Source of the DNA: Candidatus Scybalomonas excrementigallinarum
GTDB taxonomy: Bacteria > Bacillota > Clostridia > Lachnospirales > Lachnospiraceae
NCBI GenBank assembly: GCA_018710905.1
Contig: DVIZ01000206.1
Span: 1 to 64,000, forward strand
Direction of reading: 5' to 3'
DNA length: 64,000 bases
Under the pieces are notes generated by a model that was not told the origin of the DNA, did no database searches, and saw nothing but the letters and a program-made list of their open reading frames with translations. Both the position numbers and the translations under genes were made by a program. Shown here one piece after another: positions 3,420 through 9,155 of the stretch; within the stretch, counting starts at the first letter, position 1, and every line of letters begins with the position of its first letter.

Positions 3420-4250
3420 TTATTCTTTCATTTCTTTCCAGTTTATTTTCTTAAAAAGATCGTTTGCCTCGTTTCCATTCCATCCTTTTTGCAATAAATG
3501 AAAAGAAAATGAGGTTCTTAGTACATGAGGAGTAATTTCTTTTTTAATCCCTGCTTGACTAGCATATGCTTTTATCATCTTCCAAAGTCCTTGGCGTGAC
3601 ATGGTTTGTCCACTTCGATTTAAAAACAAAATATCCGTTTCTCCTTTTTCTAATTGTGGTCTTGCTTCCTCTATATATTCTTTTAAAATCTCTTTTGCAA
3701 TCGTTTCAAAAGAAATGACCTTTGTTTGCTTTTCTCCTTCACAAACCAAATACCCCAATTCTAAATTGACATTCTCTTTTTTTAGCTGAATTAATTCATT
3801 TACATGGATTCCCGTCTCATAAAGTAACTCTAAAATAGCCCGATCTCTTATACCTTTTGTGGTTCTTTTCGATGGCTGTTCAAAGAGTAGCTCAACCTCT
3901 TCCATTGTTAAAACATCAATTGTTTTTTTCTCGACTTTTGGACTTTGCAATTGTTCGGTTGGATCCATAGAAATCCAACCACTTCGAACTAAATATTGAA
4001 AATATTTTTTTAATACTGTAATACTTCTAGAAATGGTAGCTGTTGAAAATCCTTTTTTTTCCATATATAATAAGTAGGAAGTTACACTTGTAGCTGTTAT
4101 TTCATTTACTTCTGTCATTCCAAATTGTTCAAAATATGCCTTTGCTTTTCTCAAATCTCTTTCGTAAGAAATTCTCGTATTATAACTTGCTCTTTTTTCT
4201 TTCTCTATGTAGGTAATAAACTGTTGTATTTTTTCCTCCACCTGCTTCAC
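3420..4250 (-). CDS. XerD-like tyrosine recombinase homologue lacking key catalytic residues
   Basis: Homologue of the XerC/D chromosome-dimer recombinases by overall sequence. An N-terminal SAM-like core-binding domain (about 1-90) is followed by the catalytic fold. The active site is incomplete. The first catalytic Arg of the usual T-G-L-R-x-S-E-L motif is His149 (E-T-G-I-H-V-N-E-L). Lys near 174 and the H-x-x-R pair (H242, R245) remain. The protein stops soon after H-L-L-Q-K-G, before the segment that normally carries the second His/Trp and the Tyr nucleophile. Length is 276 aa against about 295-300 for XerD. The reading frame ends just before a terminator, so no lost tail is visible downstream. 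The start is GTG at 4250 or the GTG three codons on. The position downstream of nudF and spoIIM matches the usual firmicute xerD locus. Probably DNA-binding but not cleaving. Confidence 0.75.
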   Translation of the reverse strand: MKQVEEKIQQFITYIEKEKRASYNTRISYERDLRKAKAYFEQFGMTEVNEITATSVTSYLLYMEKKGFSTATISRSITVLKKYFQYLVRSGWISMDPTEQLQSPKVEKKTIDVLTMEEVELLFEQPSKRTTKGIRDRAILELLYETGIHVNELIQLKKENVNLELGYLVCEGEKQTKVISFETIAKEILKEYIEEARPQLEKGETDILFLNRSGQTMSRQGLWKMIKAYASQAGIKKEITPHVLRTSFSFHLLQKGWNGNEANDLFKKINWKEMKE

Positions 4251-4290: not shown

Positions 4291-4842
4291 CTATTTTCCA
4301 ATAAGAAGCATTGTTATCTTTTGTACAAGTGTTGGATTCCAATAAGCTTCGATATAACAGCCAAGCCCCCAAATTCCAATAATACAAATGAGTTGTAACA
4401 ACATCTGATAATCCTTTTTTTGTTTTTCCCCAATTTGAAATAACCCATAAAGAGCGCCACTATATACAAAATAATGGGGAATTAAATATACAATAGATAC
4501 CAATACCCCTACAATCCCAATTCGCATTGTCTCTAGTGCGAATAAAGCGCTTGTTGAAAAAGAAAACAAAAAAAGTGGGACACCAATTCCAATAAAACGA
4601 TTTGTAAAAAAAAATAATAATAAAATTCCTAATAATTGCTTTCCTCTTCGAAATAATAAAAATATAAAATATTGCTTTTGTGGTAACTCTCCAGCAGCGA
4701 TTGTCCGATACTGATCCAAATTCCACAAATCAGATATCCCCGCCTGATTTTTAAAAAATAGGTTTGTTAAGAAAGCCCCTAATATAATTCCTGTAAAAAA
4801 AATCACTTTCCATATCTGATATACTTTTTCATTTTGTTCCAT
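4291..4842 (-). CDS. spoIIM: stage II sporulation protein M-like membrane protein
   Basis: SpoIIM works with SpoIID and SpoIIP in peptidoglycan removal during engulfment of the forespore. This 183-aa protein is almost wholly hydrophobic, with about five membrane segments separated by short basic loops (the F-R-R-G-K-Q loop and the E-K-Q-K-K-D loop), as in the family. An ATG ten codons upstream (4872) is in frame, but AAAGGAG lies just ahead of the ATG at 4842, so I use that one. The nudF-spoIIM-xerD order supports the call more than any single motif. It points to an endospore-forming lineage, though a core sporulation operon is not within view. Confidence 0.75.
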   Translation of the reverse strand: MEQNEKVYQIWKVIFFTGIILGAFLTNLFFKNQAGISDLWNLDQYRTIAAGELPQKQYFIFLLFRRGKQLLGILLLFFFTNRFIGIGVPLFLFSFSTSALFALETMRIGIVGVLVSIVYLIPHYFVYSGALYGLFQIGEKQKKDYQMLLQLICIIGIWGLGCYIEAYWNPTLVQKITMLLIGK

Positions 4843-4947
4843 AGAAAACTCTCCTTTATCATAAATAAGCACTCTATCATAACTTCAGCATTATGTAATA
4901 CTATATGCTTACTTCTAAAAAAAGAGAACTCTATCCTTTTATCTCAT

Positions 4948-5490
4948 CTATTTTTTATCAATATACTTTGCTTTATATGTCAAAACTCCTGCAATCGTTT
5001 TCGCATCTTTTATTTTTCCTTCAATAATCATATCCATTAATTCTTCTACGGAATATCGTTCGATTTGGACAAATTCATCTTCGTCTAAATGCTGTTCGGT
5101 CTCTACAAGTTCGGTAGCTAAATAAATGTATACAACTTCATTACAAAAACCAATTGCCGTAATAGCATCCACAAGATGTTCTATTTTTCCCGCCTTTTGC
5201 CCTGCTTCTTCTTCTAGCTCACGAAGGGCACTCATCTTTGGTTCTTCCCCTTCATTGATTCCACCTGCTGGTATTTCAAGGCTCATGCGTTCTAAAGAAT
5301 TTCGATATTGACGTACCATAATAATCTTTCCATCTTGATCCACTGCTACAACGGCTGATGCACCTTTATGCTTTACCAAATCCCATTCCACTTGTTTTCC
5401 ATTTGGTAACTCAACAATATCTTTATATACATCAATAATATGACCTTTATAAGCTAATTCTTGTCTAACTTTTTTATATTCTTTTTCCAT
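4948..5490 (-). CDS. nudF: NUDIX hydrolase, ADP-ribose pyrophosphatase type
   Basis: Predicted to split ADP-ribose to AMP and ribose-5-phosphate. A complete Nudix box (G-x5-E-x7-R-E-L-x-E-E-x-G) sits at about residues 76-98, preceded by L-E-I-P-A-G-G, the segment typical of ADP-ribose pyrophosphatases. The longer in-frame start at 5520 lacks a ribosome site; AGGAAGG before the ATG at 5490 fixes a 180-aa product. It heads the leftward cluster nudF-spoIIM-xerD-like. Substrate preference within the NudF/ADPRase group is inferred from sequence and gene order. Confidence 0.85.
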   Translation of the reverse strand: MEKEYKKVRQELAYKGHIIDVYKDIVELPNGKQVEWDLVKHKGASAVVAVDQDGKIIMVRQYRNSLERMSLEIPAGGINEGEEPKMSALRELEEEAGQKAGKIEHLVDAITAIGFCNEVVYIYLATELVETEQHLDEDEFVQIERYSVEELMDMIIEGKIKDAKTIAGVLTYKAKYIDKK

Positions 5491-5597
5491 AATGTTTCCT
5501 TCCTTTCCTATACGAAACAAAAAGCTCTATGTTCTTCTAAAATTATTGTTTTTTGTAAACGATAAAAAGCGCTCTTTCCAAACTTCTCCGATTCACA

Positions 5598-9141: not shown

Positions 9142-9155
9142 CGAACAAATGTTTG
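9142..9155 (-). promoter_or_regulatory. LexA (SOS) box upstream of recA
   Basis: CGAACAAATGTTTG matches the firmicute LexA/DinR consensus CGAACRNRYGTTYC at all but the last defined base. It lies just downstream of the recA -10, over the expected early transcribed region, where a repressor would block elongation or open-complex formation. Confidence 0.75.

Follow-up and report, generated by a model that had tools for sequence, protein, structure and literature searches.

A predicted XerD orthologue without its catalytic tyrosine, and complete XerS-like recombinases in the same genome

The xerD locus and its neighbours

The window, by which we mean the whole stretch of DNA that was analysed, consists of the first 64,000 nucleotides of a contig from Candidatus Scybalomonas excrementigallinarum (DVIZ01000206.1). 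Near one end of the window lies a xerD-type gene with the following features and neighbours.

3420..4250, minus strand: predicted XerD orthologue lacking H/W and Tyr; 276 aa when counted from the first GTG, with 4241 as the probable start
3804..3806, minus strand: CAT, a His codon in place of the first catalytic Arg (residue 149); among the 165 family loci, 149 encode Arg here and 9 Lys
3720..3743, minus strand: beta-hairpin C-E-G-E-K-Q-T-K, without the canonical GKG lysine, which is missing in nearly all relatives too
3516..3527, minus strand: H-V-L-R, the retained H-x-x-R pair, from the sequence
3420..3485, minus strand: short non-homologous tail (last 21 codons) replacing the G-H...Tyr segment
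3368..3411, no strand assigned: inverted repeat AACAAGAGA ... TCTCTTGTT, read from the sequence, in the interval where xerD and the aroF-type gene converge
4291..4872, minus strand: spoIIM-type membrane protein, upstream neighbour; HMM E 2.3e-47, by homology among the neighbours of relatives
4948..5520, minus strand: nudF-type NUDIX hydrolase; HMM E 7.4e-78

The frame on the minus strand is open throughout its 276 codons. The GTG at 4241-4239, nine bases in, matches the starts of orthologues better than the first GTG, and is the probable start. The best NCBIfam match of the protein is XerD (TIGR02225), with 239.3 bits over profile positions 1-250 of 290; this is below the curated equivalog cut-off of 329.6 bits, as is the score of the XerD of a sister species, G001 (289.0 bits). 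The alignment to the XerD structure 1A0P reaches residue 256 and then ends. Compared with the catalytic set R, H-x-x-R, H/W and Tyr, the protein has His for the first R, possesses HVLR and lacks both H/W and Tyr. Sequence, profile and alignments thus bear out what a preliminary description of this DNA had reported about these residues. Judged by its sequence, the gene would be a true XerD orthologue whose product is no longer able to cut and rejoin DNA. A model predicted by AlphaFold2 without an alignment was useless (pLDDT 38.9).

A GKG-like hairpin is canonical in XerC and XerD, and a Glu in the hairpin of the window protein aligns with the corresponding lysine of E. coli XerD, which we take to be K172. 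However, such a hairpin is present in only 2 of the 173 XerD loci that we collected, even where the other catalytic residues are all retained. The hairpin Glu is therefore a feature of the clade and separate from the loss in the window.

The genes upstream support the assignment. Both the nudF-type gene and the membrane-protein gene, for which we assume the name spoIIM, lie directly upstream of xerD, so the nudF-spoIIM-xerD position given by the preliminary description stands. At 1e-3, Pfam gives no match to the spoIIM-type protein, but the protein can be recognised in relatives. One or both of these genes were found at 149 of the 173 XerD loci, and there is one strong XerD match per genome across the family. 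Downstream, xerD is convergent with a gene that is presumably aroF, with 95 bases between them, and the inverted repeat in this interval is probably a terminator common to both genes.

Alignment of the last 21 codons to the G-H...Y segment in the nearest relative is no better than that of shuffled sequences (122 of 500 shuffles were as good), and the tail from HLLQ to the stop is 8 codons shorter than in the G001 orthologue. It is important to consider whether a sequencing or assembly error has introduced a frameshift that hides a real Tyr-bearing tail, given that the assembly is in 208 contigs and the gene lies 3.4 kb from a contig end. However, G-H...Y is absent from all three minus-strand frames down to 3301, as expected from the earlier claim that there is no frameshifted tail, and the interval between the stop and the convergent gene is just 95 bases long. 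Moreover, the loss of the first Arg is an independent change. An error that would restore the Tyr is thus nearly refuted, and we attach only a minimal probability to it.

Sister species and selection on the gene

Our sample of the genus consists of three genomes: that of the window (G000), G001 and G002. Their XerD proteins form a 98* set in the tree described below. The XerD of G001 (about 55-56% identical) has R, HxxR, GH and Y, with 7 residues past the Tyr, and that of G002 (53% identical) has R, YxxR, GH and Y, with the first His lost and 9 residues past the Tyr. Since both sisters have the first Arg and the Tyr, the loss of these residues belongs to the window lineage only, while the short C-terminus is common to the genus. 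In this sample, the orthologues at the same locus have not lost the same residues, and G001, the nearest sister, retains R, H-x-x-R, G-H and Y. The three xerD 3' ends aligned too poorly as DNA for the loss to be placed as one deletion.

Using Nei-Gojobori distances, omega is about 0.30 (0.13-0.49) on the window branch and 0.30 and 0.24 on those of the sisters; the intervals are wide and dS is high. The three genomes are near or past synonymous saturation; pairwise maximum-likelihood dS is 26-35 for pairs including the window gene, so these estimates are usable only as an omega "below 1". Of 41 conserved columns in the catalytic domain, the window protein retains 34, G001 39 and G002 38, i.e., 7 are changed in the window protein versus 2 in G001 and 3 in G002. 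Of 12 conserved columns in the N-terminal domain, the window protein retains 11, and the one miss is the start codon. As to constraint, which the preliminary description proposed to look for in dN/dS, the whole-gene omega is below 1 and shows no relaxation, but the changed columns hint at it. The same description held that intact R and Y in sister species, together with relaxed selection on this copy, would speak against a repurposed protein: the sisters do retain R and Y, but relaxed selection is absent from the whole-gene omega.

In simulations without indels, 0.08 neutral substitutions per site left the frame open in only 3.75% of runs. Any neutral phase must therefore have been short, although a recent loss is compatible with this result. 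Ordinary decay would mean that xerD recently lost its active site after another recombinase took over its task, and that it is a pseudogene in the making with its frame still unbroken. We regard this as a substantial possibility that is nonetheless somewhat short of an even chance. The residues retained by G001 and G002 and the eroded conserved columns are consistent with decay. However, the 276-codon frame is open, the position after spoIIM is intact, and omega on the window branch is well below 1 and similar to that of the sisters. The earlier proposal that the gene is kept rather than decaying accordingly draws support from the intact frame, from omega below 1 and from the constraint on another dead XerD (see below), but has the erosion of the catalytic domain relative to the sisters against it. 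No sister species in the sample shares the loss, which weakens the case for persistence of the window's dead copy, and we consider retention and recent decay nearly level for this gene.

XerS-like recombinases in the window genome and the family

By curated cut-offs, neither a XerC nor a complete XerD was found in the window genome among the 9 of 10 Phage_integrase matches that were scored (all but the one on contig C35). A scan of genome contigs with the window protein yielded one distant locus only. The window genome does encode two XerS-like proteins, one of 350 aa on contig C126 and one of 349 aa on contig C194, in which R, HxxR, GH and Y are all complete. XerS is the top NCBIfam match of both (208.8 and 215.9 bits), under its cut-off of 267. 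The second, catalytically complete Xer that the preliminary description proposed to search for thus exists in the form of a XerS-like protein, but not as a XerC or complete XerD at the cut-offs. The C126 protein is 83% identical to its counterpart in G001, as against 56% for xerD between the same genomes. The C194 gene (locus L048, 3436-4485) is 51% identical to the C126 gene, with a dif-like site just upstream at 4513 and an 85% identical copy in G002.

For comparisons beyond the genus, we used 299 genomes, nearly one per genus, of a family that we take to be the Lachnospiraceae; 246 of these are classed as good. A protein was counted as present at E up to 1e-40 for XerS-like and up to 1e-30 for XerD. 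XerS-like proteins are present in 275 of the 299 genomes (238 of the 246 good ones). XerD is present in at least 11 of the 24 genomes lacking XerS-like, counted among the 20 that were listed. In all seven closed genomes with both positions, the xerS-like gene lies 0.455-0.492 of the genome from dnaA; three further closed genomes in the dnaA search are without xerS positions and are excluded from this count, and G000 itself is in contigs. XerS-like would most likely be the recombinase that resolves chromosome dimers. Known XerS acts alone as a single recombinase, according to passages of PMC5357621. Among the papers searched, we found none on a XerS-type/dif system in Lachnospiraceae and none mentioning both Lachnospiraceae and XerS.

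dif-like sites

A 27-base palindrome, AGTTTACATAA-N5-TTATGTAAACT, occurs with both arms perfect in a phage contig and in G001, G035, G072 and G290, the last with two copies separated by 2.3 kb. Its distance from dnaA is 0.475 in G072 and 0.483-0.484 for both copies in G290. In G000 each xerS-like gene has a match on its upstream side, 20/22 at 87 bases from the C126 gene and 18/22 close to the C194 gene. Beside the xerS-like genes of G000, G001 and G026, perfect or near-perfect sites are found within 0.4 kb, and in G002 at about 1 kb. Among 20 xerS-like neighbourhoods (12-20 kb), a site with a score of at least 18 and a 5-base spacer was found in 6 and not in the other 14; shuffled sequences gave maxima of 16-18. 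Because the pattern with up to 3 mismatches is overall not clearly commoner than a reversed control, we rely only on the best matches and on where they lie. With this restriction, a candidate for the dif site that the preliminary description proposed to look for occurs in several genomes as a dif-like palindrome near XerS-like or at the terminus.

Several of these sites adjoin other elements. The phage contig (L258, 1-10395, from IMG/VR) encodes a rolling-circle initiator and has a virion-protein match and a Zot-type ATPase match that is below the cut-off. At 9153 these phage genes are followed by a perfect dif-like palindrome, and beyond it by a host-type XerS-like gene whose identity to the G000 one is 66%. 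The contig probably represents a filamentous prophage that the host recombinase inserted at dif, which would be an indirect sign of recombination at this site. The two sites in G290 (L260, 4603 and 6946, 2.3 kb apart) flank other genes, one site being abutted by a gene for a 181-aa tyrosine recombinase, and two sites in G001 (L259, 2727 and 11812, 9.1 kb apart) also flank other genes; these pairs are possible dif-exploiting elements. In G035 (L262, 4316-4993) a perfect site adjoins lexA, and a lexA-like start is also located downstream of xerS-like in G284 (L093), which suggests a dif-lexA-xerS neighbourhood near the terminus.

XerD across the family

XerD is found in 164 of the 299 family genomes (138 of the 246 good ones) and is missing from 135 at the threshold used. 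Of the 173 loci collected, 165 are from the family. The first catalytic Arg position is R in 149 of these, K in 9, H in 3 and another residue or a gap in 4. The Tyr is present in 149 and absent in 16. All of R, H, R, H and Y are canonical in 132 loci, 13 of which have fewer than 12 residues past the Tyr, while in 17 the Tyr is present but another catalytic residue is altered. XerS-like is present in 15 of the 16 genomes with a Tyr-less XerD.

We constructed a tree of 170 rows, excluding L030, L069 and L232 and dropping the C-terminal and catalytic columns. The 14 Tyr-less rows require 12 changes on this tree, at least 7 of which are forced by strongly supported branches. Shuffles gave a mean of 13.6 changes, and 28 of 500 were as low as the observed 12.

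Some of these observations match what would be expected if the window gene is decaying. Two of the 16 Tyr-less genes are plainly broken, L069 by an in-frame stop and L232 by a frameshift, and could represent the next stage. The absence of XerD from so many family genomes agrees with such decay, as does the genus of G111, a genome with a truncated XerD, in which three of four species are without any XerD. The XerD proteins of G111 and G321 share their end residue.

The patchy distribution also bears on the suggestion, made in the preliminary description, that the window protein is an inactive subunit of a heteromeric Xer complex. Such a subunit might contribute DNA binding without catalysis, for example together with XerS-like on dif. 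The dif-like arms TTATGTAAACT match the XerD arm of B. subtilis dif, so both proteins could use one site, and similarity to XerD is retained up to H-x-x-R. However, with XerS-like present in 275 family genomes and XerD absent from 135 of the 299, XerS-like does not need XerD. In addition, the C-terminal helix of Xer proteins serves partner contact and is gone here, and the only complete Xer proteins found by the scoring above are of the XerS-like type, with no XerC or XerD at the cut-offs. The suggestion thus finds no support, and we consider it very improbable.

A truncated XerD under purifying selection

One case of long retention comes from two congeneric species. The XerD of G183 (242 aa) stops right after the second Arg and is without the hairpin, His, H/W and Tyr. 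That of its congener G324 (243 aa) has the same architecture and the same end residue, and is 71% identical. Pairwise maximum likelihood gives an omega of 0.083 (approximately 0.049-0.107) at a dS of 2.4, with 2dlnL of 148 versus omega of 1. This Tyr-less XerD is therefore under strong purifying selection in both species, which also weighs against the reading of the window gene as decaying. A XerD from another genus, that of G280, forms a 99* set with that of G183 and has a similar end; a search for a second truncated XerD in the genus of G280 found only G280 itself.

Proposed explanation

We propose that takeover by XerS-like freed XerD of catalysis, and that the window remnant has been kept, at least until recently, for a non-catalytic role in binding DNA. 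We assign this explanation very nearly an even chance. Most likely, dimer resolution would have passed to a single XerS-like recombinase acting at a palindromic dif near the terminus, and XerD catalysis would then most likely have become dispensable. Many genomes would have dropped xerD altogether. Others would have eroded it from the C-terminus inward, losing first the partner-contact tail and next the segment with Tyr and H. Such a takeover could explain why XerD is patchy, why its C-terminus has been eroded repeatedly and why XerC is absent. However, takeover alone leaves the retention of the dead XerD in G183 and G324 unexplained, and this calls for a function that is free of catalysis.

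What is left of the window protein would be its core-binding domain at the N-terminus and the larger part of the catalytic-domain clamp, most likely kept for a role that involves binding of half-site DNA. A candidate role for this binding, proposed by analogy, is unloading of the SMC complex. It is important to note that the exact 11-base half-site TTATGTAAACT shows no terminal clustering in closed genomes and does not occur in G111. This argues against SMC unloading via that exact half-site, although the protein's true site may differ.

A broader version of our explanation is that there is a recurrent class of dead, C-terminally shortened XerD proteins, freed by takeover by XerS-like and dif, that are under purifying selection as recombination-free terminus binders, e.g., SMC unloaders, with the window gene as a young member. 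We consider this version rather unlikely. If a dead XerD is truly retained, the proposed recombination-independent role of XerD would be naturally split from recombination, and dead XerDs would be ready-made separation-of-function proteins. Beyond this question, our observations point to a XerS-type/dif system throughout a large family, and they warn that a xerD annotation in this family is not proof of a working recombinase.

Comparison with known systems

The window protein resembles the XerD (RipX) of XerCD/dif systems in its top family match, its N-terminal core-binding domain, its catalytic domain up to H-x-x-R and its nudF-spoIIM neighbours. However, it differs in having His for the first Arg and in lacking H/W, Tyr and the C-terminal tail. 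It also scores under the curated cut-off, and no XerC partner was found in its genome.

For B. subtilis and S. aureus, Karaboja et al. (2021) reportedly described XerD as an unloader of SMC. SMC unloading by XerD is also cited in passages of PMC10945525 and PMC9733580. What this shares with our proposal is that XerD would act by binding sites at the terminus. However, the B. subtilis and S. aureus protein is a full recombinase, and the terminal clustering of half-sites is not seen here.

The XerS-like proteins are comparable to XerS of the XerS/difSL system of streptococci and lactococci: they are single recombinases of ~350 aa with XerS as their best NCBIfam match, their genes are near the terminus in the closed genomes of the family, and in some genomes a dif-like site is near the gene. 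They nevertheless fall below the XerS cut-off of 267, and the site differs. While difSL has 31 bases with an 11-base centre, according to PMC5357621, the palindrome here has 27 bases, 5 of them in the centre. In Lactobacillus helveticus, XerS is near the skew shift-point and dif/XerCD may not function, with both xerC and xerD reported, as stated in passages of PMC3025954. That case differs from the present one in that both xerC and xerD are there, whereas the window genome has only a XerD, and that XerD is visibly dead.
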